Positions 14,442 to 52,614 of a stretch of DNA of 52,805 nt are shown one piece after another; positions within the stretch are counted from its first letter, which is position 1, and every line of letters begins with the position of its first letter. The notes under the pieces were generated by a model, which was not told the origin of the DNA, searched no databases, and saw only the letters and a list, made by a program, of their open reading frames with translations. The stretch is from Oscillospiraceae bacterium (GTDB taxonomy: Bacteria; Bacillota; Clostridia; Oscillospirales; Ruminococcaceae), in NCBI GenBank assembly GCA_017408395.1, contig JAFQUQ010000037.1, positions 1-52,805 on the forward strand. The letters run 5' to 3'. Position numbers and translations under genes: made by a program.

Positions 14442-14650
14442 ATTAAAGTTTTAGGTCAAGCCTTTTTCAAAATGGCTTGAAATCAAACTGCGTTTGCTTG
14501 GGTTCAAAGGGACAGCATCCCTTGCGGGTTAAGGGCAGAGCCCTTAGCAAGTCTGAGCAAAACTAAAGCGCAATTCACCATAAAAAGCAAGGATAAGTAA
14601 AACCGTCAGGTTTATACTATCTTTAAAAGCCCGTTAATCTGAATTGCGCT
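14442..14650 (+). repeat. multi-hairpin repeat module, copy 1 (left arm of an inverted pair)
   Basis: Begins ATTAAAGTTTTAGGTCAAGCC and ends CTGAATTGCGCT. It contains the serial hairpins of the family: CAAGCC with GGCTTG, AAGGGA with TCCCTT, TAAGGGC with GCCCTTA, and an outer GCAATTCA/TGAATTGC pair enclosing an inner GATAAGTAAAACC hairpin. It is the mirror image of the module at 15081-15282. A long palindrome starts 32 nt later. Confidence 0.85.
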
Positions 14651-14682
14651 AAAATTTTAAACGGTATAAGCAAAACCAACCC

Positions 14683-14731
14683 TCATCCAACAAAGAAAAA
14701 GAGCGTAAGCGGTTTTTTCTTTGTGGGATGA
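14683..14731. repeat. long palindrome 1, downstream of repeat copy 1
   Basis: An 18-bp stem with one mismatch (TCATCC...AAAGAAAAA with its complement) around loop GAGCGTAAGCGG. The stem sequence is unlike that of the other palindromes; the loop motif is shared with palindromes 2-4. Confidence 0.85.
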
Positions 14732-14772
14732 CACCACCAATCAACTGTAAACAATTCCATACAAACTCAATC

Positions 14773-14818
14773 TCTGCTATAAAAGAAAAGAGCGAAGCGT
14801 GTTTTCTTTTATAGCAGA
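14773..14818. repeat. long palindrome 2
   Basis: A perfect 17-bp stem (TCTGCTATAAAAGAAAA) around loop GAGCGAAGCGTG. It lies 41 nt after palindrome 1 and has no multi-hairpin module of its own. Confidence 0.9.
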
Positions 14819-14913
14819 CACGGCAGGAAAGAATTACGTAGGGGAATTTTTTACACAAGCTATACAATTGGTAAATTAATTCTCTGCAAATACAAACTGT
14901 TATTTCCGTTTGT

Positions 14914-14959
14914 CACAGCCAAAAAAGAAAAATCGCTGCGCTCTTTCTTTTTTGCTGTG
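14914..14959. repeat. long palindrome 3
   Basis: CACAGC...AAAAAAGAAA pairs with TTTCTTTTTTGCTGTG with one bulged C. The loop read on the minus strand contains GAGCGCAGCG. It is nested between further inverted segments, CTCTGCAAAT (14882-14891) and ATTTGCAGAG (14967-14976). Confidence 0.8.
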
Positions 14960-15003
14960 AGATTTAATTTGCAGAGGTCTGTTTGTGATTTGGTCTGGCT
15001 TGT

Positions 15004-15047
15004 CGTTACAAATCGAAACCGCTTACGCTTGTTTTCGACTTGTAACG
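15004..15047. repeat. long palindrome 4, paired with repeat copy 2
   Basis: CGTTACAA-TCGAAAC pairs with GTTTTCGA-TTGTAACG (about 16 bp, one mismatch) around a loop that reads AAGCGTAAGCG on the minus strand. It lies 33 nt from the inner end of repeat copy 2. Confidence 0.85.
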
Positions 15048-15080
15048 AGATTTTGTTTTGCTTAAAGATGTAAGAATTTA

Positions 15081-15282
15081 GCCGCAATTCAGATTGACGG
15101 GCTTTTTTAGATAGTATAAACCTGATGGTTTTACTTATCTTTGCCTTTTACGCTGAATTGCGGCTTTTTTTGCTTTTTGTTTTGCTTGGGTTTGCTAAGG
15201 GCTCCTCGCCCTTAACCTCGCCAAAGGCTCTGCCTTTGGATTCCGCAAGCCTTTTGAAAAAGGCTTGACCTAAAACTTTAAT
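15081..15282 (-). repeat. multi-hairpin repeat module, copy 2 (right arm of the inverted pair)
   Basis: Read on the minus strand it runs from ATTAAAGTTTTAGGTCAAGC to CTGAATTGCGGC. Hairpins in order: CAAGCC/GGCTTG, CCAAAGGC/GCCTTTGG, TAAGGGC/GCCCTTA, then the outer GCCGCAATTCAG/CTGAATTGCGGC pair enclosing an inner AGATA...TATCT hairpin. It shares long blocks with copy 1 in reverse orientation, including TAAAACC-TCAGGTTTATAC. After it, 15288-15324 holds a run of short ATTCCGAATTCCG-type repeats up to the next stop codon. Confidence 0.88.
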
Positions 15283-15325
15283 GTCGGCTCAATTCCGAAT
15301 TCCGCATTCCGAATTCCGAATTGGT

Positions 15326-15607
15326 TTAAATCTGTTTTTTGGCAATCTGAAGCACCTGCACATAAATTCCTGCTACTATCTGATAAAGCTCAGGGGGTAC
15401 ACCCTGCCCTACGTTGAGCATTGTAAGCATAGCCGCTGTGGAGTCGTCCCTGAACACAGGCACGCCGTTTTCATCTGCAAGATTTATGATTCTTTCAGCT
15501 ACCTTGCCGTGTCCCGAAGCGACAACAACAGGGCTGTAATCCTGCTGGGGATTGTATTTGAGAGCAACTGCCGCATTGCTTGCCGAGGCGTTTTTATATC
15601 TTGACAT
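15326..15607 (-). CDS. YlqH-like protein, FlhB C-terminal domain homologue
   Basis: 93 residues, starting MSRYKNASASNAAVALKYNP. The KVAERIINLADENGVPVFRDD and PPELYQIVAGIYVQVL segments mirror the cytoplasmic C-terminal domain of FlhB downstream of its cleavage site. Stand-alone proteins of this kind (YlqH in Bacillus) are known and can partly substitute for that FlhB domain in export switching. There is no NPTH cleavage motif. The start follows AAAGGAG, and its 14-nt overlap with the upstream gene's end implies coupled translation. The order ylqG-like/ylqH-like matches Bacillus. Confidence 0.82.
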   Translation of the reverse strand: MSRYKNASASNAAVALKYNPQQDYSPVVVASGHGKVAERIINLADENGVPVFRDDSTAAMLTMLNVGQGVPPELYQIVAGIYVQVLQIAKKQI

Positions 15608-17711
15608 TAAGACCACTCCTTTTATCCTGAATTTTCGGGAATACCTGTGTAAGGTCACGGCGTTTTACAACCGTACCCACCCTTGTATCCTCTGCCGTGT
15701 AGCCGTTAGCCGCCGCGATCTGCGGAATACTGGTTTTAAGTGGCTGGAAAAGCTTTTCCGTGCCCGACGGACAAAGCAGCTGCACCTGTAATTTTCTGTC
15801 CTGAGTCTGAAGGTCAAGCTCAAAATATCCTACATTTTCCACATCAAAGCAAAGGAACAGGTGCTTTGATTCGATACTGCCGTTGCGGTTTTCTGCGTCA
15901 GGGTCAGCCCACAGCTCACCGAATGCTTTAAGCGCACCGTCCTGTATCGGAACAAGGTAGTGCAGAAGCGGCGTAAACACGCCGGGGGATGTAAGAAGCC
16001 CCTGCATAATATCCGACCTGCTCATTGAAGAAAGCGATTTGAGAGAAGGGTCGTTTATGTTTTTGGCAAGGAAATCCATAAGGTTTGCCATTGAAGTAGG
16101 CGGCTTGTAGTTTATGCCCTCCGCCTGTGCAAGATTACCAAGAATTTCATTCATACTCTGTGCGAGGATAATTTTCTTTTCCATATTCTGCACGGAATTA
16201 AGAGTAATGCTGAGGTTGTCTATAAGCTTGTTAAGGTCGCCCGTGGCGTTGAAGCGTCTTAAAATAAGGTTGAGCTCGCCCATTGAATTCTGTGGCAGGA
16301 GCGCCTCAAAGGCACTTCTTATTGAAGCCGCACCGTTTTCCGTGTTAAGACCGCTTAAAAGGTTTGTCAGCTGCTGTGCAGACATTTTGTTCACCGAGTC
16401 GTTGAGCGTACTGCCCAGCTCCTTTGAAAGCATCGTAAGGGACTGCTGGTCCAGTATGGAGTCGGACGCAAAGGACACGTCCTTTTCAAGGAAGGGGATG
16501 TTGCCGAGAATTTCGTTGATTTTCCCTGCAAGCATTGTTTTAAGCTCCATATCGTCCACGGAATTTATCATAATGCTTAATCTGTCAATGAGAGAGGAAA
16601 TATTTCCCGTTGACTCGTAGCTTTTTAAAATGTTGTTCAGAGCACCGTTCATTGTCTGCGGAAGCATAAACAGAAGCGAGTCACGGATAGCCTCCAGACC
16701 CCCTGCGGAGTTTACGCTGTTTAAACCCGAAGCAAGATTTTCCGCCGTGATGAAGCTGTTGTTCATAGCCGCACCGAGCTTTTCCGAAAGCAGGGAAAGG
16801 GAGCTTGTCGAGGAAGCCGAGCCTTGAACGATACAGCTTAAAGCGCCTAAACGGATGTCCGCAGGCAGGTCGGCATTTTCTATGTACTGCGTAAACATCG
16901 CCCTGAGCATATCCGCCTGCTCCTGACTGGACGCCATATCGAGAATTGCGTTGAAGCTTTCGCCGAGAGCCGTGGTACTGCCGTTGTATCTTGACATATT
17001 GTAAACCACAAGGGAAATGAGATTTTTGGTGTTGTCGTTCATAAGCAGGCTGTTCTGGAGATTATCCAATAAAGATAGTATAGTGCCCTTCATTTCGCCG
17101 AAAGTCTCGCCGTTAAGATTGTCCGCCGCCTGCATAAGCATATTTTCAAACTCTCTTGAAGGAGCCGCTTCCTGAGCAAGAAAACGCAGATTTGAGGAAA
17201 GAGAAGTCAGAATATCGTCTCTTGCCGAAGCATCGGCCGCCGCCTTTGTAAACTGGAGAATAGCCTCTCCCATATCGTCCGAGCCTGTAAACAAGGCGTT
17301 TTTAAGCTCATTCCATATAGGGTCGCTGTAAATTGTGGCCTCTTTTTCCTGAGCGACCATATCGGAAACCAGTCCCGACGGTCTGAGCATTACCTCGTTT
17401 GCAAATTCCGTCACCTTATTTAAAATGTCAGCGTTGCCTTCCGCACCGAGAGCCGCCGCCGCATTGCTTCCAACGATTGAACGGAGCACGCTCATAGCGG
17501 TGGTAGGATTTTTCGCAACGGATACCTGGACGTTGAAGCCGCCGTCCTTGTTGTCCCTGTTGGTATATTCTTCCGTCCGCTCGGTAGGCTTCTGGACCCT
17601 GCTGGTGTCACCGAGGTTAAAAACCTGATCTGTCTGGGGCTGCTGGGTCTTATTGGCAAATTCATATCCTTTAGGAGCAACAGGGGTGGTCACGTTGAGA
17701 AGATTTGGCAT
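15594..17711 (-). CDS. large YlqG-like protein with a FliK-type C-terminal domain
   Basis: 705 residues without signal peptide or membrane segment. The last 110 residues (FDVENVGYFELDLQTQDRK, then LFQPLKTSIPQIAAANGYT) resemble the C-terminal domain of FliK hook-length proteins. The middle is helical and contains an internal duplication: about 305-407 and 427-528 share patterns such as SLIDRLSIMINSVDDME versus KLIDNLSITLNSVQNME, each ending EILGN. It lies before a YlqH-like gene, as YlqG does in Bacillus. A role in export-substrate control is inferred; the repeats and large size are unusual. Confidence 0.65.
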   Translation of the reverse strand: MPNLLNVTTPVAPKGYEFANKTQQPQTDQVFNLGDTSRVQKPTERTEEYTNRDNKDGGFNVQVSVAKNPTTAMSVLRSIVGSNAAAALGAEGNADILNKVTEFANEVMLRPSGLVSDMVAQEKEATIYSDPIWNELKNALFTGSDDMGEAILQFTKAAADASARDDILTSLSSNLRFLAQEAAPSREFENMLMQAADNLNGETFGEMKGTILSLLDNLQNSLLMNDNTKNLISLVVYNMSRYNGSTTALGESFNAILDMASSQEQADMLRAMFTQYIENADLPADIRLGALSCIVQGSASSTSSLSLLSEKLGAAMNNSFITAENLASGLNSVNSAGGLEAIRDSLLFMLPQTMNGALNNILKSYESTGNISSLIDRLSIMINSVDDMELKTMLAGKINEILGNIPFLEKDVSFASDSILDQQSLTMLSKELGSTLNDSVNKMSAQQLTNLLSGLNTENGAASIRSAFEALLPQNSMGELNLILRRFNATGDLNKLIDNLSITLNSVQNMEKKIILAQSMNEILGNLAQAEGINYKPPTSMANLMDFLAKNINDPSLKSLSSMSRSDIMQGLLTSPGVFTPLLHYLVPIQDGALKAFGELWADPDAENRNGSIESKHLFLCFDVENVGYFELDLQTQDRKLQVQLLCPSGTEKLFQPLKTSIPQIAAANGYTAEDTRVGTVVKRRDLTQVFPKIQDKRSGLNVKI

Positions 17712-17846
17712 TTCATCACTTCCTTTTTATGTTAAAAAGTTCCTTACTACTAAATTATACTCTGTTTTTCAGTCATTTTTGTTAATTATTAACGAAAATT
17801 CGCTTTAAATTTTTTTGCCTTAATCCTATTATATTTCATTTTTGAC

Positions 17847-17875
17847 TTGTAGTAAAGAGTTTTTTATAGTATAAT
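17847..17875 (+). promoter_or_regulatory. possible sigma-A promoter for cheA
   Basis: TTGTAG (17847-17852), 17 nt, TATAAT (17870-17875). The -10 is perfect and the -35 weak. No sigma-28 consensus is seen. The divergent interval 17712-17987 is very AT-rich; a TATAAT at 17754-17759 on the minus strand could serve the ylqG-like gene but has no good -35. Confidence 0.4.
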
Positions 17876-17987
17876 ATAAATAAATATATTAATGTATTTT
17901 GGTATAGGTCTGCCGTATGGTAAATTATGCCTTACAATATATTAAAAACACTATTAAATATTTTAATGCGATAGGTAGGTGCTTTCT

Positions 17988-20375
17988 ATGGCAAAATTCG
18001 AAGCCGGTATGGAATCAATGGTTGATATGTACATATTTGAAACCACATCTCTGCTGGAACAATTGGATCAGATCCTGATGAAAACCGAAAATCAGAGCAG
18101 CTTCTCCTCTGAGGAGATCAACGAGATTTTCAGAATAATGCACACCCTCAAGGGTTCATCTGCTATGATGGGACTTGAAAATATGTCCAAGCTCTCTCAC
18201 AGCATCGAGGACATGTTCTTTATCATCAGAGAAGAAAATCCTGTTATCAGCGATATGCGCAGTCTTTACGACCTGCTTTTCAATGCCTCCGACCTGCTCA
18301 AGGAAGAAATTGAGCTTATCCAGGAGGATGAATACACGGCAACAGACTTCAGCGAAGCAATGGGCAAGATCAAGTCCTTTGCGGCAGTATTGAAGGGCGG
18401 AGCTCCCGCAGCAGAAGCTGCACCATCCGCACCTGCTGCAGCACAGCCTGCACAGGCAGCTGCTCCTGCGGCACAGGCACAGGCATCACAGAACGACCTT
18501 ACAACAGTAAGAGTAAGCTTCGACGACGACTGCAAGATGGAAAATCTCCGTGCGCTGCTTGTTATCAACAAGATCAGCGAGGAATGCGAAAAGCTTGAGT
18601 ATACCCCTGCCGATATTGAAAACAACCCCGAAACTGCAAAGGAGATTATTGAAAACGGCTTTATCGTAAAATTCAAGCCATCCTCCGATACAGATATAGA
18701 CACTGTTCTTTCAATAATCGCAGACACCTCCAACGTTAAGTCCTACGAAGTCCTTGAAATGGGTCACGTTATCGAGCTTGTAGGCACTATCAACGTAAAG
18801 GTTACATTTGAAGAAGAGTGCAAGATGGAAAATCTTCGTGCACTTATCGTAGTAAACAACATCAAGGAAAAGTGCAAGACCATCAGCTATGAGCCTGCGG
18901 ACATCGAAGGCAACACAGCTTCCGCACAGACGATCATAGACAACGGTTTCATCATTCACTTCACAGCAGACGACCCTAAGGGGGTTATTAGAATGATCAA
19001 TGCAAGCCCTAACGTAAAAATGTGCGAGATCCTCTCAGCAGGCGACGCAGCTCCTGCGGCTCCTGTTCAGACAGCGGCTCCTGCAGCTCAGGCAGCAGCT
19101 CCGGCACAGACAGCGGCTCCTGCTCAGGCTGCACAGGAAGCTCCTGCACAGAAGTCCGTTGAACAGATCAACAATATGCTCGGAAACAAGGGCGGCGCTA
19201 AGCAGTCACTCATTTCCGTAAACCTCAACAAGCTTGATACGCTCCTTGACCTTGTAGGTGAAATTGTTATCACAGAAGCAATGGTAACCTCCAACCCTGA
19301 CCTTAAGGGTCTGCGTCTGGACAACTTCCAGAAGGCAGCAAGACAGCTCCGCAAGCTTAATTCCGAACTTCAGGATACGGTAATGTCCATCCGAATGGTG
19401 CCTATCTCAGGTGCGTTCAATAAGATGACCCGTATCGTAAGAGATATGAAGGTCAAGCTCAATAAGGACGTAGACCTTATCTTTGAAGGCGAAGAAACAG
19501 AAGTTGACAAGTCCATCATCGACCAGCTCAATGACCCTCTCATGCACATGGTAAGAAACTCTATGGACCACGGCATCGAGGATACAGCTGAAGAAAGAAT
19601 TGCAAAGGGCAAGCCCCCTAAGGGCAAGCTTACCCTTTCCGCATACAACTCCTCAGGTGAGGTTATTATCGTAATCGCTGACGACGGCGCAGGCATCAAC
19701 AGCCAGAAGGTAATCGAAAAGGCTGAAAGAAACGGCCTCCTTACAAAGCCAATGAGCGAGTACAGCGAGAAGGAAATCTTCAATATGATTATGCTCCCCG
19801 GCTTCTCTACCAATGAGCAGGTAACTGAATTCTCAGGCAGAGGCGTTGGTATGGACGTTGTACGTAAGAACATCGAAAAGATCGGCGGCAGCGTATCCGT
19901 AGACTCCAAGTGGGGCGAGGGCACAAGCTTCATCATCAAGATTCCTCTCTCACTCTCCATCGTAGACGGTATGGAAGTATCCGTAGGCCAGTCCATCTTC
20001 ACAATTCCTATCAGCTACATCAGAGAATCCTTCAAGGTTAAGCCAAGCCAGCTTGTAAAGGATACTGACGGCAGCGAAATGATAATGATCCGAGGCGAGT
20101 GCTTCCCACTCATCAGACTTTACGAGCTTTACGACCTTGAACCGGGTATCAGCGACCTTTATGAAGGTATCGTTATCCTTGTTGAAGCTGAAGGCAAGTG
20201 CGCATGCATCTTTGCAGACGAGCTTATCGGCGAACAGCAGGTAGTAGTAAAGCCATTCTCCTCACTGCTTAACAACTTCAACGTGAAGCAGCACGGTATG
20301 GCTGGCTGCTCCATCCTTGGTGACGGTTCTATTACAATCATTCTTGACATCGGCAATATTATCGGTGATTTCTGA
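17988..20375 (+). CDS. cheA: chemotaxis histidine kinase CheA with two P2-type domains
   Basis: 795 residues. P1 (1-130) has FRIMHTLKGSSAMMGL with phospho-acceptor H52. Two similar alpha/beta domains follow (about 172-258 and 268-351, each with CKMENLRAL and NGFI), separated from P1 and P3 by Ala/Pro/Gln linkers. P3 dimerises; P4 (about 480-655) has the ATP-binding HMVRNSMDHGI, ADDGAGIN and GRGVGMDVV boxes; P5 is CheW-like. A GTG three codons upstream is in frame, but GGTAGGTG is the ribosome site, so the ATG is chosen. The kinase phosphorylates CheY and CheB. It heads cheA-W-R-B. Confidence 0.95.
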   Translation: MAKFEAGMESMVDMYIFETTSLLEQLDQILMKTENQSSFSSEEINEIFRIMHTLKGSSAMMGLENMSKLSHSIEDMFFIIREENPVISDMRSLYDLLFNASDLLKEEIELIQEDEYTATDFSEAMGKIKSFAAVLKGGAPAAEAAPSAPAAAQPAQAAAPAAQAQASQNDLTTVRVSFDDDCKMENLRALLVINKISEECEKLEYTPADIENNPETAKEIIENGFIVKFKPSSDTDIDTVLSIIADTSNVKSYEVLEMGHVIELVGTINVKVTFEEECKMENLRALIVVNNIKEKCKTISYEPADIEGNTASAQTIIDNGFIIHFTADDPKGVIRMINASPNVKMCEILSAGDAAPAAPVQTAAPAAQAAAPAQTAAPAQAAQEAPAQKSVEQINNMLGNKGGAKQSLISVNLNKLDTLLDLVGEIVITEAMVTSNPDLKGLRLDNFQKAARQLRKLNSELQDTVMSIRMVPISGAFNKMTRIVRDMKVKLNKDVDLIFEGEETEVDKSIIDQLNDPLMHMVRNSMDHGIEDTAEERIAKGKPPKGKLTLSAYNSSGEVIIVIADDGAGINSQKVIEKAERNGLLTKPMSEYSEKEIFNMIMLPGFSTNEQVTEFSGRGVGMDVVRKNIEKIGGSVSVDSKWGEGTSFIIKIPLSLSIVDGMEVSVGQSIFTIPISYIRESFKVKPSQLVKDTDGSEMIMIRGECFPLIRLYELYDLEPGISDLYEGIVILVEAEGKCACIFADELIGEQQVVVKPFSSLLNNFNVKQHGMAGCSILGDGSITIILDIGNIIGDF

Positions 20376-20399
20376 TTAACGGAAAGGAAGTTGTGTTAA

Positions 20400-20876
20400 A
20401 TGAGCGAAGCAATTTATACTGCCGAAAACAAAAAAACCTTTGCAGCTGACGGTATCGAAATTCTTTTCTTCACCATCGGCGACAAGACATACGGCATTGA
20501 GATCAAATATGTAAATGAAATTATCGGAATCGAACAGATCACGGTAGTTCCTAAAATTCCTGATTATATCAAGGGCGTAATCAATATCCGAGGCAAGGTA
20601 GTTCCCGTAATCAGCGTGAGAAAGCGCTTCGGAATGGAAGAGATCCCTTATGACGACAGAACCTGTATCATCGTGCTTGAATTTGAAAACGGCACACAGG
20701 TAGGCGTTATCGTAGACAGAGTACAGGAAGTAGTTGTTGTTGACAAGGCAACCGTCAGCAAGGTTCCTGACTGCAAGAACGTAAACGCAAACAAGTACAT
20801 CAAGAGCATTATAAACTCCGCAGACGACATCAAGCTTCTCCTTGACTGCGACAAGCTTATTATGAGTGAAACCTAA
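20400..20876 (+). CDS. cheW: chemotaxis coupling protein CheW
   Basis: 158 residues forming a single CheW domain. Characteristic segments are GDKTYGIEIKYVNEIIG, VPKIPDYIKGVINIRGKVVP and VGVIVDRVQEVV. It links chemoreceptors to CheA at the membrane-associated array. It lies 24 nt after cheA with GGAAAGGAAG as ribosome site. No receptor gene is present in the window. Confidence 0.95.
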   Translation: MSEAIYTAENKKTFAADGIEILFFTIGDKTYGIEIKYVNEIIGIEQITVVPKIPDYIKGVINIRGKVVPVISVRKRFGMEEIPYDDRTCIIVLEFENGTQVGVIVDRVQEVVVVDKATVSKVPDCKNVNANKYIKSIINSADDIKLLLDCDKLIMSET

Positions 20877-20890
20877 AACAAGCCAGGCAC

Positions 20891-20917
20891 CGCCCCGTTG
20901 GAAAAACTGATGGGGCG
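20891..20917 (+). terminator. hairpin between cheW and cheR (possible attenuator)
   Basis: CGCCCCGT pairs with ATGGGGCG over 8 bp with an 11-nt loop. No T-run follows. It sits between cheW and the chosen cheR start and may trim or attenuate the transcript; its role is a guess. Confidence 0.35.
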
Positions 20918-20944
20918 ATGTCGTTATTTAAACGGAGTAAACCT

Positions 20945-21808
20945 ATGCTTAAACTTACAGACAACGATTTTAACAGGCTCGTAGCCTATATGAAAACAAA
21001 CTACGGCATAAATCTGGAAAAAAAGCGTATCCTTATAGAAGGCCGCCTTTCAAATATGGTAACACAGCGCGGCTTCAAGGATTTCAAGGAATTTCTCGAT
21101 TTTGCCTTTGCCGATAAAACAGGCAACGAAACAATGCAGCTTGTAAACAAGCTCACCACCAACCACACCTATTTTTTAAGAGAGCCTGAGCATTTTGAAT
21201 ATCTTAAAACGGTGGTGCTTCCGTATCTGGAGCAGACCGTTACCGACCATGATATGCGTATCTGGTGCGCCGCTTCCTCAACAGGACAGGAGCCGTACAC
21301 CATCGTAATGACAATGGACGAATATTTCGGTGCAAAGGCGTCGGCGTGGAATCTTAAAATTCTTGCAACCGACCTTGATACAGACGTGCTGAAGAAGGCA
21401 AAAGCAGGAATTTACACCGCTGAAATGGTGAAGGACGTTCCTGCCGAGTGGCTGAGAAAATATTTTAACCGTATTGATAACAATACCTATCAGGTAATTG
21501 ACAGAATACGCAATATGGTCGAATTCAGACAGTTCAACCTTATGGATAAAATTGTGTGCAGAAAGCCTTATCACCTGATAAGCTGCCGCAATGTTATGAT
21601 TTACTTTGAAATGGAAACCAAGAACGCACTTGTTGAGCGTTTTTACGATGTAACCCAGGAGGGCGGATACCTTTTCATCGGACACGCAGAAAGCGTAGGC
21701 AAAAACACACGTTATACCTATGTAAAACCTGCCGTTTACCGCAGATTAAGCGAAAAGGACAAGGAAGCCGCTGAAAAAAGCAGATTCAGGAGATATAAGA
21801 CTGATTGA
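20945..21808 (+). CDS. cheR: chemoreceptor methyltransferase CheR
   Basis: 287 residues from the ATG at 20945, which follows CGGAG by 7 nt; an in-frame ATG at 20918 has a poorer site inside the upstream hairpin. An N-terminal helical domain (LTDNDFNRLVAYMKTNYGI) precedes a SAM-binding fold with TTNHTYFLREPEHFEYL, WCAASSTGQEPYTI and ISCRNVMIYFE. It methylates receptor glutamates using S-adenosylmethionine, opposing CheB. Its stop lies 2 nt before the cheB ATG, so translation is coupled. Confidence 0.95.
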   Translation: MLKLTDNDFNRLVAYMKTNYGINLEKKRILIEGRLSNMVTQRGFKDFKEFLDFAFADKTGNETMQLVNKLTTNHTYFLREPEHFEYLKTVVLPYLEQTVTDHDMRIWCAASSTGQEPYTIVMTMDEYFGAKASAWNLKILATDLDTDVLKKAKAGIYTAEMVKDVPAEWLRKYFNRIDNNTYQVIDRIRNMVEFRQFNLMDKIVCRKPYHLISCRNVMIYFEMETKNALVERFYDVTQEGGYLFIGHAESVGKNTRYTYVKPAVYRRLSEKDKEAAEKSRFRRYKTD

Positions 21809-21810
21809 GT

Positions 21811-22941
21811 ATGGCACGAAATAAGATTAAATTACTTGTGGTTGACGACTCCAGAATGTTCAGGGAGTCCTTGAAAAGCAACCTGGAAAATGACAATATA
21901 ACAGTAGTCGGAACAGCCAGCGACGCATTTGAAGCAAAGGATATGATAATGGAGCTGTCCCCCGATGTAATGGTGCTGGATATACAGATGCCGAAAATGG
22001 ACGGCATAACCTTCCTGCGCCGTTTGATGGAGCAGTATCCCCTCCCCTGCATAATGATAACCTCATCCACCATTGATGAGCGTGAGGTCGTGGACGCAGG
22101 TGCGGCAGGTTTTATGCGCAAACCTAAAACTCCGCAGGAAATGCACACCTTCTGCAGCGTTCTCGGAACAAAAATCATCATTGCCGCTTCAAACAAAATG
22201 CGCTATACACGCAAGCAAAGCTCTTCTCCCGACACAAGCGTTGACGGCGTAGCATCACTTCCCGGCACCCTGCCTAAAGTAAAATACACCCCCGAGCTTC
22301 CTACAAAAGAAGCGGCGGCAGGTGCAGCTGCAAAGGGCAGAGAGGGATTTGTTGTTGCTTTGGGAGCATCAACAGGCGGAACGGACGCCCTTGAATGTGT
22401 AATCAAGGCGTTTCCTGCCGATATGCCCCCCGTTGTGGTTGTACAGCATATGCCGCCTGTGTTTACAAAAATGTATGCCGAGCGGCTTAACAAGAGCTGT
22501 GCTGTAAACGTAAGGGAAGCTGTGAACGGTGACAGGCTGAAATGCGGCGACTGCATAATCGGCGCAGGCGGTTATCACCTTGAGCTTAAAAAGGATGCAA
22601 ACGGCTACTATATAAGCAGTAAGCTGGGCGAAAAAGTATCGGGACACTGCCCGTCAGTAGACGTACTTTTCTCAAGCGTTGCCGATACAGCAGGCAAAAA
22701 AGCCATCGGAGCACTTTTAACAGGTATGGGTGCAGACGGTGCAAAGGGGCTGCTTAAAATGCATAAAGCAGGTGCATACACAATCGGACAGAACAAGGAA
22801 ACCTGCATAGTTTACGGTATGCCGATGGAAGCATACAAGCTTGGAGCGTGTGCGGAACAGCAGGCGCTTGACAAGGTAGGCGAAACCATCTGCCGCAGAC
22901 TTGCCGCAGGCTGGACGGATAAAGACCTGAATAATAAGTAA
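21811..22941 (+). CDS. cheB: chemotaxis response regulator methylesterase CheB
   Basis: 376 residues. An N-terminal receiver (LLVVDDSRMFRESL, phospho-Asp in VMVLDIQMPKMDG, MITSSTIDE) is joined by a linker to the esterase domain, whose triad lies in ALGASTGGTDALE (Ser), VVQHMPPVFTKMYAERL (His) and LLTGMGADGAKGLL (Asp). CheA phosphorylates it, and it demethylates or deamidates chemoreceptors. The start ATG is 2 nt after the cheR stop; an in-frame TTG two codons earlier overlaps that stop. It ends the cheAWRB operon; the repeat element begins 18 nt later. Confidence 0.95.
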   Translation: MARNKIKLLVVDDSRMFRESLKSNLENDNITVVGTASDAFEAKDMIMELSPDVMVLDIQMPKMDGITFLRRLMEQYPLPCIMITSSTIDEREVVDAGAAGFMRKPKTPQEMHTFCSVLGTKIIIAASNKMRYTRKQSSSPDTSVDGVASLPGTLPKVKYTPELPTKEAAAGAAAKGREGFVVALGASTGGTDALECVIKAFPADMPPVVVVQHMPPVFTKMYAERLNKSCAVNVREAVNGDRLKCGDCIIGAGGYHLELKKDANGYYISSKLGEKVSGHCPSVDVLFSSVADTAGKKAIGALLTGMGADGAKGLLKMHKAGAYTIGQNKETCIVYGMPMEAYKLGACAEQQALDKVGETICRRLAAGWTDKDLNNK

Positions 22942-22959
22942 CAAAAGCTATGTACGGAC

Positions 22960-23125
22960 ATTAAAGTTTTAGGTCAAGCCTTTTTCAAAAGGCTTGCGAG
23001 GTTAAGGGCGAGGAGCCCTTAGCAAATCCAAGCAAAACAAAGCCGCAATTCAGAATGTAAGGCAAAGATCAGAGAATTATATGTTTTTTCTGATCTTACG
23101 TAACCTGATATTCTGAATTGCGGCT
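22960..23125 (+). repeat. multi-hairpin repeat module, copy 3
   Basis: From ATTAAAGTTTTAGGTCAAGC to CTGAATTGCGGCT. Hairpins: CAAGCC/GGCTTG, TAAGGGC/GCCCTTA, and outer GCCGCAATTCAG/CTGAATTGCGGC enclosing a perfect inner AAGATCAGA/TCTGATCTT hairpin. The CCAAAGGC hairpin of copies 2 and 4 is missing. It lies between convergent cheB and cheD. A long palindrome starts 29 nt later. Confidence 0.88.
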
Positions 23126-23154
23126 AATTTTTGTGTTCAAAACAATTTATGCCT

Positions 23155-23193
23155 CATTATCATAAGAAAACATAAAGTTTTCTTATGATAATG
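23155..23193. repeat. long palindrome following repeat copy 3
   Basis: A perfect 17-bp stem, CATTATCATAAGAAAAC with its complement, around ATAAA. The stem sequence is unrelated to the palindromes at other copies. It has no T-run, so it is not an ordinary terminator. Confidence 0.9.
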
Positions 23194-23254
23194 ACATAAA
23201 AGTCAATCATTTTTATGCCAACAATTTTCATACACCTCTATACCCGACTCATTG

Positions 23255-23285
23255 AAAAAAATCGCCCCGATAACGGAGCGATTTT
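23255..23285 (-). terminator. terminator of the early flagellar operon after cheD
   Basis: On the minus strand AAAATCGCTCCG pairs with CGGGGCGATTTT (one G-U) around TTAT and is followed by T-rich sequence. It begins about 6 nt after the cheD stop and should end the 26-kb operon. Confidence 0.88.
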
Positions 23286-23290
23286 ATTTA

Positions 23291-23773
23291 TTAAACCTTA
23301 ATTATAGGTTTTGTTGCGGAACGTACTTCCATAATTCCGCTGTCGGGATGGAAAAACACGGTTCTGCCGAAGTTTTCACCGGTTTCCTCAGCGATAATTC
23401 TTATTTTATAAGCCGCAAGGATTTTCTTTACAGCCGCAACGTTTCTTTCACCGATATTGAACACCGAGGAAGTGGTGTTGAACATCTGAGCGCCCCCTGC
23501 AATTTTAGCAACAAGCCTTGAAGGTGTCGCACCTGCCAGAGACATAGTCTGAATAAGCTCTGTAATGCCCGTATCAGCGTAACGGCGTCTGTTGTCCGCA
23601 CCGCCGTTTACAGCGTCCTTGCTTAAAGGGAGCATAATGTGAGCCAGACCTGCAATTTTCTTTTCAGGGTCATAAAGACAAATGCCGACGCAGGACCCCA
23701 GCGCATAGGTAGCCAGAACATCAGGCTCTTTAGCAATGTTAAGGTCAGCAATTCCAACAGTAATCATACCCAT
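23291..23773 (-). CDS. cheD: chemoreceptor glutamine deamidase CheD
   Basis: About 160 residues. ATYALGSCVGICLYDP holds the catalytic Cys and AGLAHIMLP the catalytic His of CheD. It deamidates receptor glutamines and forms a complex with CheC. The frame is open further upstream, but the ATG at 23773, one base after the cheC stop, fits translational coupling; the next ATG two codons on is equally possible. It is the last gene of the early operon, directly after cheC. Confidence 0.93.
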   Translation of the reverse strand: MGMITVGIADLNIAKEPDVLATYALGSCVGICLYDPEKKIAGLAHIMLPLSKDAVNGGADNRRRYADTGITELIQTMSLAGATPSRLVAKIAGGAQMFNTTSSVFNIGERNVAAVKKILAAYKIRIIAEETGENFGRTVFFHPDSGIMEVRSATKPIIKV

Positions 23774-23774
23774 A

Positions 23775-24398
23775 TCAGATACCCACTCCCAATCTGTTAA
23801 AGAGGAACTCAAGCGAACTCATTTCGGGAACAAGAATCATATTGCTCTTTACCTCACAGCCTCCGATAACAAAGCTGTCGTCAATAAACAAAACCTTGTT
23901 GCCTACCTGTGCAAACTGAACAGCAGGAACGCTTAAAATAGCGCCCACCATATCAACGCACATCTGCGGTACAGAAATATCAATCGTCAGTCCTGTAAGC
24001 GAAGCGATAGCGTTTATATAGGAAGCAGACATAATGTTGCCCACCTCTGCAATAAATGATCTTTCCATCTCATTCATATTTGCAAGGTCCTCGATCTCGC
24101 TGCCGAAAATGGCGCTTGTCATCTGGCTTGCGCAGGAGTGCTGAAGAACATACAGCATCATACCGTTAATGTCCTCTGTAAGGTTGACCAGCATACCGAT
24201 AGCAATATTTTCGGGACCGCCGAGAAAGTTTACAGCGTCAGAGAAGTCAAGCAGCTTAACATTAGGTACGGAAATATCCGTTTCGCAGTTAAGCATAGTA
24301 GAAAGCGCACTTGCAGCATTACCGGAACCGATATTGCCGATTTCCTTGAGAACGTCCAGGTGCATATCCTGAAGCTCTTCAACATTTCTGATACCCAT
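23775..24398 (-). CDS. cheC: CheY-P phosphatase CheC
   Basis: 207 residues with two phosphatase-type repeats: LKEIGNIGSGNAASALSTML (N-terminal) and FIAEVGNIMSASYINAIASL (central), each carrying the E-x2-N active-site pattern. CheC removes phosphate from CheY-P and is stimulated by CheD. It precedes cheD with a 1-nt gap. FliY in the same operon carries a related domain, so there are at least two candidate CheY-P phosphatases. Confidence 0.94.
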   Translation of the reverse strand: MGIRNVEELQDMHLDVLKEIGNIGSGNAASALSTMLNCETDISVPNVKLLDFSDAVNFLGGPENIAIGMLVNLTEDINGMMLYVLQHSCASQMTSAIFGSEIEDLANMNEMERSFIAEVGNIMSASYINAIASLTGLTIDISVPQMCVDMVGAILSVPAVQFAQVGNKVLFIDDSFVIGGCEVKSNMILVPEMSSLEFLFNRLGVGI

Positions 24399-24417
24399 TA
24401 AAATTCAAACCTTTCTG

Positions 24418-42818: not shown

Positions 42819-42863
42819 CGGAAGCACCTCCGAAAGCTAAGACGGCTTAAACCGCCCTAAGGG

Positions 42864-44168: not shown

Positions 44169-44223
44169 TGCACATCTCCGCAGTTTATAACAAAAATTAA
44201 CATTAAATCAAATCAGCTGCCGT

Positions 44224-46081: not shown

Positions 46082-46084
46082 AGA

Positions 46085-47710: not shown

Positions 47711-47769
47711 CCTGTGAATTTTCCTTCCCGAATATAAGTTAAACTAAGCGGCGCATACCGCAGACCCCG

Positions 47770-48078: not shown

Positions 48079-48102
48079 TTCTCTTTACCTTTCTGTTTTA
48101 AA

Positions 48103-48591
48103 TTATCTTCCGTTAAGCGACATAGCCTTTGTAAGCATAGCCTTTACCGCAGCGACAGCGGAAGCGTTAGCCTCATAATTACGCTGTGCAGCAAGGAGGT
48201 CGATCTGCTCCTTGGTGTTGTCAACATTGCTTTTGTAGATGTAGCCGTCCTCGTCAGCGAGGGGGTTATCGGGGTCATAGACAGGAACAAACGGAGCGTC
48301 GTCCTCAATGACCTCGGCAACAGTAACGCCTGCATAAGCGTATTTGCTTCTGTTGCTTAAATAATATGTACCTCTGTGGTATCTTGGACCGTCCTGATTT
48401 GCGTATTTGTTAAGCACCTGGCTGAATCTTTTCTTTTCGGAGAAGACAACCAGCTGTCTGCAATAGGGGTCAGCGCCCACAGCGGTGTTGTATGTTTCCT
48501 GATTGGCGATATTCTGAGAGATGATGTCCATTCTCAGACGCTGTGCCGAAAGAGCAGAGCCGCCGATGTCAAGAGAGCTTAAAAATGACAT
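48103..48591 (-). CDS. flgC: flagellar rod protein FlgC
   Basis: 162 residues. SLDIGGSALSAQRLRMDIIS and QNIANQETYNTAVG at the start, and QIDLLAAQRNYEANASAVAA near the end, are typical of FlgC. It is an exported proximal rod subunit. It follows flgB by 12 nt. Confidence 0.95.
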   Translation of the reverse strand: MSFLSSLDIGGSALSAQRLRMDIISQNIANQETYNTAVGADPYCRQLVVFSEKKRFSQVLNKYANQDGPRYHRGTYYLSNRSKYAYAGVTVAEVIEDDAPFVPVYDPDNPLADEDGYIYKSNVDNTKEQIDLLAAQRNYEANASAVAAVKAMLTKAMSLNGR

Positions 48592-48603
48592 TTACGCCCC
48601 TCC

Positions 48604-48981
48604 TTATCTTGTGATAGCGGAACGGATGACAGCGTAATTATGGTTGAGATGGTCCATCAGAGCGCTGTACTGATACTGAGCGTCCGCAAGAGCGAGAGCT
48701 TCCTTTTCCTGGTCAACGTTATTTCCGTTGAGAAGCAGGTCCGTATCCGTTTCCTGAGTGGTCACCACAGAAAGAGTAAGCTTGCTGTCGGTGTCCTCAT
48801 CGGGAGTATGGTATTTACATTTGCATTTTTCCTTGAGAATGAGTCCGAACTCCACGGTTTTTGCTTTATAGTCGGGAGTCGAAGCATTAGCGATATTATT
48901 TGAAATCACCTGCTGTTTGTACCAGGTTGCGTCAAGAGCCTGTTCTGAAAGGTTATGGATTGCACCGTCAAAAAGTCCCAT
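48604..48981 (-). CDS. flgB: flagellar rod protein FlgB
   Basis: 125 residues from MGLFDGAIHNLSEQALDATW; QQVISNNIANASTPDYKAKT is the rod signature. CGGAGG lies 5 nt before this ATG; an upstream in-frame extension has no ribosome site and is left out. It heads the 26-kb early operon (fla/che type). Confidence 0.95.
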   Translation of the reverse strand: MGLFDGAIHNLSEQALDATWYKQQVISNNIANASTPDYKAKTVEFGLILKEKCKCKYHTPDEDTDSKLTLSVVTTQETDTDLLLNGNNVDQEKEALALADAQYQYSALMDHLNHNYAVIRSAITR

Positions 48982-49093
48982 AGCGGCCTCCGTTTCTTGA
49001 TATGGTAAAATATACCGTTGACATTTAACAAAATGCTGATAAATCAGCGTAAAAAACACTTCACCTTAAAAAAGGGGGCAGTTACCCGATAAT

Positions 49094-49122
49094 ATTATAG
49101 CATATTTTAACACAATTCACAA
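49094..49122 (-). promoter_or_regulatory. sigma-A promoter of the early flagellar operon
   Basis: Minus-strand TTGTGA (49117-49122), 17 nt, TATAAT (49094-49099), with TGC just before the -10. The leader to flgB is about 105 nt and contains a small GCTGA/TCAGC hairpin (49034-49047). No c-di-GMP riboswitch is seen. The rest of 49123-49354 is AT-rich with no gene. Confidence 0.7.
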
Positions 49123-49354
49123 GGGCGTATCAGCAATTTTGCTACTAAACATCTAACAATTTTTTTTAAAGATTTCTATGAATTTTTTCTAAATTCAGCA
49201 CTCTTAGTTACGATATACCATAACCGCAACGAATTTGAGGGGGTATTTTTGTTTAATTTTCACAATAGACAGTATTGATATACTCAAAGAATAACTCTCT
49301 CGAATTATACCATTTGTTTATATTTCACATTGATATTTTCACAAATATCCATCA

Positions 49355-49402
49355 TAAAAAAACAAACACACAGAAATTTTATTAACAAAATTTACTGTGT
49401 GT
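49355..49402 (-). terminator. terminator of the PilZ-ParA-ComFB-like operon
   Basis: On the minus strand ACACACAG pairs with CTGTGTGT (49366-49402), with inner TAAATTTT/AAAATTT pairing, followed by TTGTTTTTTT. It begins about 15 nt after the stop at 49418. Confidence 0.85.
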
Positions 49403-49417
49403 TCATAATTTGTGTTA

Positions 49418-49831
49418 TTATTTTATATCGTGTCTTTCCAGACCTCTTCTTGAAATCACCAGTCTGATAATGCTGCGCATAACGTCACGTCGGGAGCGTT
49501 TTTTCAGCTCCTTCGCACGCTTCATATCCTCGTCATTATTGACATTTATCGTTATATACGGCACGCAGTCCAGAGCGTCCGCCATTGCCGAAGCAAAGCA
49601 CCTGTCGCAGCTGCAGCAGTTGAAGCGTTTGAGTGCAACGGGCAGAATTTCCGTTATAAGCTCGGAGCTTATGCAGATTTCAGTAGGCTTGACCGCCTTT
49701 GGTTCAGTCTTTTTCTTTTCTATCACCGACTCCTTGAAGTCCTGGTCAACCATAGGGTTTACCGCAGGCTTGCCGCCCGTAAGCAGCTTCATCACTGCGT
49801 CGGTTTTATGTGAAGTAACTCTTGACGCCAA
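49418..49831 (-). CDS. ComFB-like protein
   Basis: 137 residues. The C-terminal half contains ELITEILPVALKRF, a Cys cluster (C72, C73, C75, C78 in NCCSCDRCFASAMADALDC) and VPYITINVN, a pattern like the late-competence ComFB family. ComFB relatives have been reported to bind cyclic dinucleotides; whether this one does is unknown. The N-terminus is charged and probably disordered. The apparent start is TTG, 6 nt after AAGGAAGGA. It follows the ParA gene by 17 nt. Confidence 0.7.
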   Translation of the reverse strand: MASRVTSHKTDAVMKLLTGGKPAVNPMVDQDFKESVIEKKKTEPKAVKPTEICISSELITEILPVALKRFNCCSCDRCFASAMADALDCVPYITINVNNDEDMKRAKELKKRSRRDVMRSIIRLVISRRGLERHDIK

Positions 49832-49848
49832 CGTCTATCCTTCCTTCT

Positions 49849-50628
49849 TTAATATCTGCCTCTTCTGATCGTCCCGATTTCGGGATAGAGGCTTTCGCAC
49901 ACTCTTACATAATCCTTTGAAGCCTTGCAGTTAGGGGAATAATTTATCAGCGTTTCCTGATGTGCAGGCGCTTCCGCAACCGCAACCGATACGGAGATCT
50001 TATTCTCCAGCACCCTTGTCCCAAGCTGCTGTGCAACTATTTCAACCATTTCGCCTACTTCAACGGCAAGCTTCTGCTTTGCAACATACTTTGTCAGCAG
50101 AATTCCCCTTACGTCCAGAGCCTTGTTGTAATATTTCTTTACCGCAAGAATTGTTTCTCTCAGCTGGGCGATACCCTGCAATGAAAGGATTTCGGGAGTC
50201 ATAGGGATGATAAGGTCATCCGCCGCCGTGTATGCGTTTATTGTAAGCACGGAAAGAGCAGGAGGCGTGTCTATAATGATATAATCGTACCTGTCCTTGA
50301 CCGTTTCAAGAATATCCTTAAGAATAAACTCTCTCCTTTTTGAAGTAAGCTCAAGCTCACTGCCTGACAGCAGGATGTTTGAGGTAATGACATCGCAGAT
50401 GTGGGTAGTCTTTATTGCGTCATTTATGCTGCATTTGCCCGTCATTACATCGTGTATCGTAAACCCTCTGTCCTCAGTGCCCAGAGAAAAGGAAAGGTTG
50501 CCCTGAGGGTCCATATCTATCGCAAGGACAGACTTGCCCCTGCTTCTGAAAATACCTGTAAAAGCGGCACAGGTTGTAGTTTTGCCCACGCCGCCCTTCT
50601 GATTTGTAACAACAATTACCTTAGCCAT
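49849..50628 (-). CDS. ParA/Soj-type ATPase
   Basis: 259 residues. The deviant Walker A is KGGVGKTTT (11-19), preceded by VVTNQ; Walker A' is VLAIDMDPQGNLSFSLG and Walker B YIIIDTPPALSVLTINA. The sequence is of the Soj/ParA type rather than FlhG/MinD (no C-terminal amphipathic targeting helix is obvious). There is no ParB next to it. Flanked by PilZ and ComFB-like genes, it may position a signalling or motility structure rather than a chromosome; this is inference. GGAGATAAT precedes the ATG. Confidence 0.88.
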   Translation of the reverse strand: MAKVIVVTNQKGGVGKTTTCAAFTGIFRSRGKSVLAIDMDPQGNLSFSLGTEDRGFTIHDVMTGKCSINDAIKTTHICDVITSNILLSGSELELTSKRREFILKDILETVKDRYDYIIIDTPPALSVLTINAYTAADDLIIPMTPEILSLQGIAQLRETILAVKKYYNKALDVRGILLTKYVAKQKLAVEVGEMVEIVAQQLGTRVLENKISVSVAVAEAPAHQETLINYSPNCKASKDYVRVCESLYPEIGTIRRGRY

Positions 50629-50662
50629 ATTATCTCCATTTCAGCAGAGTCTTCCTGTCGGC

Positions 50663-51331
50663 TCAAAGCTCGGAATCACGGTTCTTAAGATTTCTGCGTC
50701 TGTCACGTTCAGCGACCTGACACTCGAAAATAAACCTTGCCAGCTGTTCCTCCTGATTAGGAGAAACGTTAAGGAAGCGGCAGCCGTAGCCGTCAATCTC
50801 GCCTGTTCCCTGCTTGGTCTGAACTCTGAGAACGTCGGAAAGGAACTCCATTTTGCCCTCAAGGAAGCTGAGCATAATCTGGTCGCCCGGCTCGAAAGCA
50901 AATTCCGACCTGAAATAAACGCCGCCCAGATTGATATTTACAAGCTCCACCTCGATAGGCTCATCGAATGTAAACATTTCCTCATTACGCATATAGAACG
51001 ACACAGAGCCGACCATTTCAACATTGACCTTGAAGGAACGGCGTCTTTCTTCCAGAGCAACACCGTCGCCCACGTGGAAATTCATCTGATACTCCGTGCA
51101 CAGGTCAACAGAAGTCTTGTACTTCATTCTTGTGCCGTTTATATATTCAAAAATTACTTCAATAAAGTCATTTCTTGAAACAGGAGGAAAGCCTGCCCCT
51201 TTAAGCATAACAAGGTCCTTGCCCTTTATACCGAAAAAGTCTCTTGGAAAAGACACAGATTTAGTTTTTATAAGCAGCTTGCCTTCGGCGTCATAAACAA
51301 GAACGCTGCTGATTTTGTCTTTATTTATCAT
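50663..51331 (-). CDS. PilZ-domain (YcgR-like) c-di-GMP receptor
   Basis: 222 residues from MINKDKISSV. An N-terminal YcgR-N-like barrel (1-90) is followed by a PilZ domain: ERRRSFKVNVEMVGSV (95-110) supplies the Arg motif and VNINLGGVYF (131-140) the (D/N)-x-S-x-x-G-like motif, here with N in place of S. Proteins of this type brake the motor or adjust export when c-di-GMP is bound. Loss of the Ser may weaken binding. The start ATG follows GGAGGAG. It heads the PilZ-ParA-ComFB-like operon. Confidence 0.85.
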   Translation of the reverse strand: MINKDKISSVLVYDAEGKLLIKTKSVSFPRDFFGIKGKDLVMLKGAGFPPVSRNDFIEVIFEYINGTRMKYKTSVDLCTEYQMNFHVGDGVALEERRRSFKVNVEMVGSVSFYMRNEEMFTFDEPIEVELVNINLGGVYFRSEFAFEPGDQIMLSFLEGKMEFLSDVLRVQTKQGTGEIDGYGCRFLNVSPNQEEQLARFIFECQVAERDRRRNLKNRDSEL

Positions 51332-51403
51332 TCGGTAATCTCCTCCGATAAAAACTGTATCCCCACGCCCGTCCGACAGGCGCAATAAAGGAAATATATT
51401 ATT

Positions 51404-51432
51404 ATTATAGCTAAAAATCAACCATTTTGCAA
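51404..51432 (-). promoter_or_regulatory. sigma-A promoter of the PilZ-ParA-ComFB-like operon
   Basis: Minus-strand TTGCAA (51427-51432), 17 nt, TATAAT (51404-51409). It lies about 75 nt upstream of the PilZ start, in the divergent interval 51332-51561. Confidence 0.75.
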
Positions 51433-51512
51433 CACTATTCTCAAATGTTGTACAATAATATGCAAACAAAAAAAGATTTTTGTACATTTAACATAAAACG
51501 GACAAACTCCAC

Positions 51513-51541
51513 TGTACAATCGGCGGCGGCTGGGTTATAAT
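51513..51541 (+). promoter_or_regulatory. possible promoter of the membrane protein gene
   Basis: TGTACA (51513-51518), 17 nt, TATAAT (51536-51541). The -10 is good and the -35 weak. Just downstream is a hairpin, GGTGCAAAG with CTTTACACC (51561-51586), then AAAGGAGG. Confidence 0.5.
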
Positions 51542-51561
51542 TAAGTGTATAAACACATAGG

Positions 51562-52350
51562 GTGCAAAGTGTACAGGCTTTACACCTTAAGCAAAGGAGG
51601 GCGGAGAAAATCAGAAAGACCATACATTCAGACAGGAAGCGCATTTCAGCCAAATACAACCACCGTCTTTTTCTGCTTAATCTGCCGTCTGTGGCGGTGT
51701 TTATCTCGGCATTTGCGATTGCCGCAATTTTTTTCTACATAGCAGACGACGGCAGTAATGTACCCTCTGTAATATTCACCACGTTGTTTTACTGCCTGTA
51801 TTTTGCATCGCTGTACAGCTTCATCGTTTGCCTTATCGGCTCCATAATTTCCCACATCTTCTTAAAAGCCCACAGCGAGCATACCTACATTGAAATTTCC
51901 GACTCCTATCTGGTAATTTCCCAGCACGACCAGACCGTTTTCAACGAAGGCAGATTCCGCAGCTACAAAAAGCTGTGGATAATCCACCTTAAAGACGTTG
52001 AACAGGTGGAATGTATAAAAAACCATATCATCGTCACCGCAAAAGCACGTTATTTCAACGAGGACGCCGAATGGCTCCGCTATGAACGAGGCGAGGACGG
52101 CGTTGACTTTGACAACTGGTGGTATAACAAAAACGGCGGAAAAGATGTACAATCCGTAGAAATCACCGATTTTTATACCCACGGTGAACGCATTGTCAAG
52201 CGTATACTCTTCTGTTCAAATAAGGTAATCGACCGTACACAGCGCCGTGAGCGTTTCAGACAGGAAATGCTTGAAATCGCACGTAACACCCAAAAAAGAA
52301 AGGGCATCTCCGACAAATACGAGCCGCCGAAATACCGCACATTCAGATAA
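51562..52350 (+). CDS. membrane protein of unknown function (YcxB-like topology)
   Basis: Up to 262 residues. Two hydrophobic hairpin segments (about 36-60, SVAVFISAFAIAAIFFYIA; 72-101, YCLYFASLYSFIVCLIGSII) are followed by a soluble domain with YLVISQHDQTVF, WIIHLKDVEQVECIKNHII and a basic tail. This layout resembles YcxB-like proteins but I cannot name it. The first start codon in frame is GTG at 51562, inside a hairpin and without a ribosome site. AAAGGAGGGCGGAG (51593-51606) lies ahead of an ATC, with no ATG, GTG or TTG in range, so the true start is unclear. Confidence 0.65.
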   Translation: MQSVQALHLKQRRAEKIRKTIHSDRKRISAKYNHRLFLLNLPSVAVFISAFAIAAIFFYIADDGSNVPSVIFTTLFYCLYFASLYSFIVCLIGSIISHIFLKAHSEHTYIEISDSYLVISQHDQTVFNEGRFRSYKKLWIIHLKDVEQVECIKNHIIVTAKARYFNEDAEWLRYERGEDGVDFDNWWYNKNGGKDVQSVEITDFYTHGERIVKRILFCSNKVIDRTQRRERFRQEMLEIARNTQKRKGISDKYEPPKYRTFR

Positions 52351-52359
52351 AATCCGATG

Positions 52360-52545
52360 TTAAAGTTTAGGTCAACCCTTTTCAAAGGGTTGCGGTTTCC
52401 AAAGGCAGAGCCTTTGGCGAGGTTAAGGGCGAGAAGCCCTTAGCATCCCCAACAAAACCAAGCCGCAATTCAGCAGATACGGTAAAGATAAGAGAACTAT
52501 CCGTTTTCAGCTATCTTCAAAAGCCCGATAATCTGAATTGCGGCT
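52360..52545 (+). repeat. multi-hairpin repeat module, copy 4
   Basis: From GTTAAAGTTTAGGTCAACCC to CTGAATTGCGGCT. Hairpins: CAACCC/GGGTTG (both sides changed relative to CAAGCC/GGCTTG in copies 2 and 3), CCAAAGGC/GCCTTTGG, TAAGGGC/GCCCTTA, and outer GCCGCAATTCAG with an inner AAGATA/TATCTT hairpin. A long palindrome starts 31 nt later. Confidence 0.88.
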
Positions 52546-52576
52546 GAATTTCTTACATATCAGACAAAACTCCCCT

Positions 52577-52614
52577 CAGTACTTGAAGGAAAATTATATT
52601 TCCTTCAAGTACTG
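52577..52614. repeat. long palindrome following repeat copy 4
   Basis: A perfect 16-bp stem, CAGTACTTGAAGGAAA with its complement, around ATTATA. Its stem is unrelated to the other palindromes of the family and there is no T-run. Confidence 0.9.

Follow-up and report, generated by a model that had tools for sequence, protein, structure and literature searches.

What is the string of hairpins that recurs in contig JAFQUQ010000037.1 of an Oscillospiraceae bacterium (family Ruminococcaceae; assembly GCA_017408395.1), each time followed at a near-constant distance by a long palindrome of changing sequence, and does it serve its host or itself, as DNA or as RNA? The contig, 52,805 nucleotides (nt) long and referred to here as the window, belongs, as C15, to the 61 contigs of a 1.85-Mb draft genome that is 71% complete (G000). 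We regard the repeat, with moderate confidence, as a modular small interspersed repeat, found here in one genus, the working unit of which is a half, ~250 nt long, with a role as RNA within the 3' untranslated region (UTR) of the preceding gene.

A preliminary description of the window had listed four copies of the hairpin module. Sequence reading and alignment found modules at all four places, but they are not four separate copies: the one at 15081 to 15282 reads on the minus strand and pairs with the one at 14442 to 14650 as a single inverted element. Two covariance models of the core hairpin were built, R1 from 38 cores and R2 from four species, and the parts of the three resulting loci are as follows.

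14437 to 15287, no strand assigned: full two-ended element of ~850 bp, near-palindromic, with inverted halves and four internal long hairpins between the cores
14437 to 14563, plus strand: left half, outer end and short-hairpin string, placed by alignment
14564 to 14653, plus strand: left half, core hairpin (R2 match, 66 bits)
14683 to 14731, plus strand: left half, adjacent variable hairpin of 18 pairs with one A-G mismatch
14773 to 14818, no strand assigned: inner hairpin H2 of the full element
14913 to 14960, no strand assigned: inner hairpin H3, ends set by eye (trimmed stem 14920 to 14954)
15003 to 15048, minus strand: right half, adjacent variable hairpin of 16 pairs with one G-U on the minus strand
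15078 to 15167, minus strand: right half, core hairpin (R2 match, 73.9 bits)
15168 to 15287, minus strand: right half, short-hairpin string and outer end, ~40 nt past the stop of a flhB-like gene
22957 to 23038, plus strand: outer end and hairpin string of a single half that lies between cheB and cheD
23039 to 23127, plus strand: core hairpin of that half (R2 match, 77.7 bits)
23154 to 23194, plus strand: its variable hairpin of 18 pairs, all Watson-Crick
52355 to 52458, plus strand: outer end and hairpin string of a single half that directly follows the stop at 52350
52459 to 52547, plus strand: core hairpin of that half (R2 match, 65.1 bits)
52576 to 52615, plus strand: its variable hairpin of 17 pairs, all Watson-Crick

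Each single half has one long hairpin. The palindromes, described earlier as 16 to 18 bp long and lying 32, 33, 29, and 31 nt after the modules, contain 18, 16, 18, and 17 pairs, beyond chance by shuffle z, and begin 32, 32, 29, and 31 nt past the core. The shared blocks are less uniform than had been stated, because at 52360 the CAAGCC hairpin reads CAACCC, and the copy at 22960 has no CCAAAGGC hairpin. The predicted fold of the half at 22957 to 23205 has an energy of −103.2 kcal/mol (z of −14.6 against 200 shuffles), its reverse complement also folds strongly (z of −11.6), and the half at 52355 to 52625 reaches a z of −9.5. A fifth R2 match in the window (49107 to 49188, minus strand; 19.9 bits, E value of 0.09) was read and set aside as probably due to chance.

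A DNA search of the draft genome gave 62 matches, and reading of those regions yielded 39 cores. By our own grouping, these form 11 two-ended elements of full spacing, 4 two-ended elements of shorter spacing, 8 single halves, and 1 copy cut by a contig end; the window element is 82% identical across 760 nt to the copy at 1171 to 1926 of contig C25. The repeat thus occurs as many dispersed intergenic copies, as is typical of interspersed repeats, and inverted terminal repeats are present in the 11 full and 4 shorter two-ended copies, the single halves being without a second end. In 38 of the 39 cores, a hairpin of 16 to 20 pairs starts 29 to 33 nt past the core; the sole core to have lost it lies at C31:8840. 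Copies without a palindrome at this distance had been named as evidence against a coupled module and arm; such copies exist, namely, this one and, by eye, several in the congener G004. The terminal sequence TAAAGTTTAGGTCAAGCC is partly repeated in tandem outside the element end at C25:15278 and 18389, C32:13367, and C8:4889, and by eye the middle of one element (G000:C25c; L060, ~1740 to 2000) has been swapped for an apparent 20-residue reading frame with promoter-like boxes, a ribosome-binding site, and a terminator.

The stems of the palindromes had been taken as unrelated, which is true only of the middle of the stem, since the ends and the A-rich inner stem are shared. The palindromes are one family: each opens with TC(A/G) (in a few cases TT), runs through some six pairs that vary freely and then the A-rich inner stem, and closes on the complement, with a C after it. 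Most paired halves have a GCGnnAGCG-type loop, and single halves have a short AT loop. In the six or so middle pairs, both arms change together, so that the variation is compensated. Membership in a single family had been expected to dissolve the idea of a constant module with a variable arm, yet this layout stands, because free variation is confined to the middle of the stem. The core stem is likewise maintained. Among 51 sequences from four species it is 93.7% paired, and cells in which both partners have changed number 51, compared with 18.1 in shuffles (none of 500 shuffles was as high). The suggestion that the repeat is a structured RNA with a variable arm gains support from the constant spacing, the compensated stems, and the wobble polarity described next.

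Imperfect pairs indicate the strand on which pairing matters, and we counted G-U and A-C pairs per strand, reading inward from the outer end (the module strand). The 38 adjacent hairpins of the source genome contain 31 G-U, no A-C, and 2 other imperfect pairs among 663 pairs, and 25 G-U, no A-C, and 2 others remain if only the 32 distinct hairpins are counted. The 15 two-ended elements were all read on the plus strand, and stems with a score of at least nine were counted: left halves have 11 G-U pairs to 1 A-C, whereas right halves have 2 G-U to 19 A-C. The two halves are opposite on the same strand, so the constraint on a half applies to the strand on which that half reads. The bias is milder in the core (19 G-U, 6 A-C, and 17 others among 683 pairs). 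It recurs in the distinct hairpins of congeners (G-U to A-C, 23:2 in G005, 3:0 in G002, and 1:0 in G004), and distinct sequence contexts pooled across three species give 20 G-U and 2 A-C pairs (binomial P value of 1.2e-4). The pairing errors that are tolerated suggest that each half works as RNA.

The polarity bears directly on the simplest alternative, that of a selfish DNA element resembling a miniature inverted-repeat transposable element (MITE), which is tolerated between genes, the hairpins serving as DNA for a transposase acting in trans, RNA playing no part, and the sites after stop codons being those of least harm. We consider this rather unlikely. Its inverted ends suit it, but opposite wobble polarity of the two halves is not expected of a double-stranded DNA element; a single-stranded DNA form would be compatible with the polarity, since there, too, the milder mismatch is G-T. 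No target-site duplication was found among congener gene ends, which have diverged too far for alignment, nor any Y1 transposase: Y1_Tnp (PF01797) has no match in the 71% complete G000, the only genome and the only transposase family searched, and the idea that a Y1 transposase drives the repeat thus found no support there. The related proposal of a non-autonomous element that ends in a palindrome is right in that the repeat behaves like a small interspersed repeat, but the palindromes are internal in two-ended copies, and the outer ends of the full element are the TTAAAGTTTAGGTCAAGCC hairpin string.

The RNA reading further draws on genomic position. Genes were taken as long open frames, and distances were counted from a point 12 nt in from the end. 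On this basis, 28 of the 36 halves that could be assessed (3 could not) have a co-directional reading frame that stops no more than 40 nt away from the outer end or slightly within the half. Six of the eight single halves have a converging gene on the other side; one does not, and one lies too close to a contig end. The full element of the window has the stop side of the flhB-like gene on one flank and the start side of flgM on the other, and its left half consequently follows no co-directional gene. For a selfish element, such a distribution could again reflect tolerance, which is how the enrichment of pneumococcal repeats between convergent genes is interpreted in PMC3049150.

Location after stop codons is also what a family of ordinary or bidirectional transcription terminators would show, and the SPRITE repeats of pneumococcus, found at such places, are said in PMC3049150 to resemble terminators. 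With our own detector, however, no terminator-like hairpin was found in any of 38 halves, each taken as the stretch that starts 170 nt ahead of the core and includes the whole variable hairpin; only 1 of 10 full elements has one, at an inner hairpin. A GC-rich hairpin followed by a U-tract, the mark of an intrinsic terminator, is lacking in the halves, the variable hairpin having no U-tract after it. The same detector finds terminator-like hairpins at 9 of 15 orthologous, element-free gene ends (6 of 11 in G003 and 3 of 4 in G005), and some of the six negative ends run directly into the next gene. Within 170 nt past the 8 single halves, a separate terminator-like hairpin is present on the sense strand in 4 cases and on the other strand in 5. 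A terminator scan limited to loops of 3 to 8 nt finds none at 22900 to 23340, where our detector, which allows loops up to 20 nt, finds one at ~23257, downstream of the half; in favor of a terminator, the scan lists one site on the minus strand (52592 to 52570) that overlaps part of the variable hairpin. We think a terminator family quite unlikely. Because terminator-like hairpins are lacking in the halves but are seen downstream of some of them or at element-free ends, the element lies between stop codon and terminator or in the place where a terminator would be expected. Promoter-like sites are near the shuffle level in two element regions (4 compared with a mean of 3.3, and 1 compared with 1.3) and number 3, compared with 0.6 in shuffles, at 52300 to 52805.

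If the repeat acts as RNA, the transcript would pass from the stop of the gene into the short-hairpin string, then through the core hairpin and its long closing stem and a linker of ~30 nt to the variable-middle hairpin of 16 to 20 bp, and a full element would consist of two such halves facing each other and joined by the inner hairpins. The mRNA of the upstream gene would run into the half, and the folded half would protect or set the 3' end of the mRNA, either replacing an intrinsic terminator or lying upstream of one, perhaps after an enzyme of the RNase III type has cut the long hairpin. A pair of halves would act as a two-way insulator. Copies would spread, or be homogenized, by some transposase or by recombination. 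In a bolder form, which we put forward as a tentative possibility, the repeat would be a spreading mRNA 3'-end module, that is, a mobile or self-homogenizing RNA domain of which each gene receives one half in place of an intrinsic terminator. Two convergent genes would then share a mirror-image pair of RNA 3' ends in a unit of termination, processing, and insulation free of U-tracts.

The preliminary description had proposed a covariance-model search of the genome and its relatives. In this search, R1 matches 4 of 396 genomes of the family, all of the same genus (G000, G002, G004, and G005); under strict filters, no match was found in the two other congeners, G001 and G003, or in 390 genomes of other genera. 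R2 matches the same four genomes. The core is thus present in the source genome and three of its five congeners (G001 to G005), of which G001 and G002 are, like G000, only 71 to 81% complete. Searched on the five congeners alone, R1 gives 47 matches in G002, 18 in G004, and 77 in G005, some of them representing both strands of one site, and none in G001 or G003. Most congener copies have the same order of parts in different letters, with a mean core identity to G000 of 0.53 to 0.54. Where congener hairpins pass the filter used, they lie 28 to 33 nt past the core, and several G002 copies have, by eye, a bulged hairpin that the filter misses.

The same genomes weigh on a retron-like msr/msd locus or another reverse-transcriptase element, in favor of which speaks the layout, a module that stays constant and, always equally far behind it, a hairpin that varies. 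We consider this very improbable. RVT_1 (PF00078) has no match in any of the six genomes of the genus (the three incomplete drafts included), and the ~39 cores, with many inverted pairs, of a single draft do not fit a retron locus.

Some positions of the repeat are common to species, but most are not. Of 15 pieces of flanking genes used as queries, 12 have matches in G005, 12 in G004, and 10 in G002, and a core lies within 0.3 kb downstream of 4, 2, and 2 of these, respectively, one of the G002 cases being called on the other strand. That most orthologous gene ends are without the element, and that copy number varies between species, would suit a selfish element. The element-free ends are too diverged to align for a target-site duplication or an empty site. 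At one ortholog of a G000 element site, in G005 (L202; G005:C101), an intrinsic terminator is followed by an apparent decayed piece of the G005 element. The repeat is present in four species, and copies from one species are more alike than copies from different ones. At five shared-position comparisons, identity is 0.52 to 0.66, compared with averages of 0.53 to 0.63 for the same species pairs and 0.70 to 0.83 within species; shared-position copies were aligned pairwise and the averages come from one alignment, which slightly favors the former. These values fit homogenization within genomes or repeated replacement.

Several observations weigh against an RNA role of the half. Polarity is absent from the inner hairpins H2 and H3, for which our tally in half orientation is 3 G-U to 3 A-C. 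Strand-biased mutation in transcribed DNA could account for part of the G-U excess, which would still suggest that the strand in question is transcribed, and because the copies are related, few events are independent. Folding energy, considered as a further polarity test, is unconvincing: the sense strand is more stable in 29 of 38 cases (P value of 0.002), but also in 26 of 38 reversed-sequence controls, and in 25 of 46 congener cases. Among the 51 core sequences, the number of pairs with a double change (5 compared with 4.1) and of pair types (10 compared with 9.7) is not above shuffles, and core covariation within G000 rests on two neighboring pairs. Of the 36 assessed halves, seven, among them the left half of the window element, adjoin a gene on its start side, and one lies far from the stop. 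In congeners, the hairpin filter is passed by 41 of 122 strand rows of cores, and 4 of 7 displayed G004 cores have, by eye, no adjacent hairpin.

The outer hairpin string is older and wider than the rest of the element: 20 of 149 relatives (G000 included) match the full element somewhere, mostly in this string. An exact 32-mer of the string also occurs in three viral contigs of IMG/VR (L100, L101, and L102). For the core, an exact-pattern scan of a genome contig collection, which may omit G000 and its near kin, gave one Humibacter stretch matching on both strands at one place, which we took as a chance palindrome.

Rfam finds only a tRNA at gathering score in the window and nothing at six other element-bearing loci; at E values up to 5, four matches in 14200 to 15500 are weak and far below the gathering score. 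No published description of this repeat was found in literature searches. REP and BIME sequences are extragenic palindromes, often in inverted pairs, with REPs of 20 to 40 bp; the repeat shares the extragenic inverted pairs but comes without a match to the Y1 (RAYT) transposase in G000. The BOX elements of Streptococcus pneumoniae are, like it, modular interspersed repeats with a predicted RNA structure (boxA, a number of boxB, and boxC), some of which are expressed; they are enriched between convergent genes and homogeneous to a narrow species group (PMC3049150). Compared by description only, the element differs from BOX in its inward-facing halves of opposite wobble polarity and its hairpin with a variable middle at fixed spacing; the word wobble is absent from the text of PMC3049150. 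SPRITE repeats resemble it as 18-bp duplexes near gene 3' ends between convergent genes but have a terminator-like U-rich tract (PMC3049150), which is missing here. The repeats bcr1 to bcr18 of the Bacillus cereus group are also interspersed, many being transcribed within 5' or 3' UTRs and some having a conserved RNA structure; they belong to other organisms, and only bcr3 is correlated with mRNA decay (PMC3446304). The comparison with BOX, RUP, SPRITE, and bcr is one of descriptions, and by analogy the element may work as do BOX, SPRITE, and bcr, small interspersed repeats that come to lie in UTRs. What is unusual is the inward-facing halves of opposite polarity, the variable-middle hairpin at fixed distance, and a structure free of U-tracts in the place of a terminator. 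If our preferred reading is true, the wobble polarity reveals selection as RNA on both sides of a near-palindromic repeat, with a different strand selected in either half. This would bear on the way in which interspersed repeats turn into 3' ends of mRNA and on how transcription ends without a visible U-tract terminator. The count of G-U and A-C pairs per strand can be used on other repeat families.

The window also holds flagellar and chemotaxis genes (CheA-like, CheR, CheB, CheD, FlgM, and FlhB-like) at 17979 to 23812, 13893 to 14177, and 15326 to 15658, and the organism is therefore probably motile. In congeners, copies of the element (L112, L110, L146, and L148) have inside or beside them another small inverted repeat, which reads TACTAAACACCA...TGGTGTTTAGTA or is closely related to this form. 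A second dispersed string of hairpins (window positions 52673 to 52805; ends of contigs C1, C7, C21, C30, C34, and C40; L049 to L054) shares the outer TTAAAGTTTAGGTCAAGCC hairpin, which is followed by GTGAATT...AACAGTCC...GGGGACGCCCT hairpins and TGTCGA(t/a)AAAG-like ends; contigs break within it, and strings like it with other stems are present in other genera of the family.

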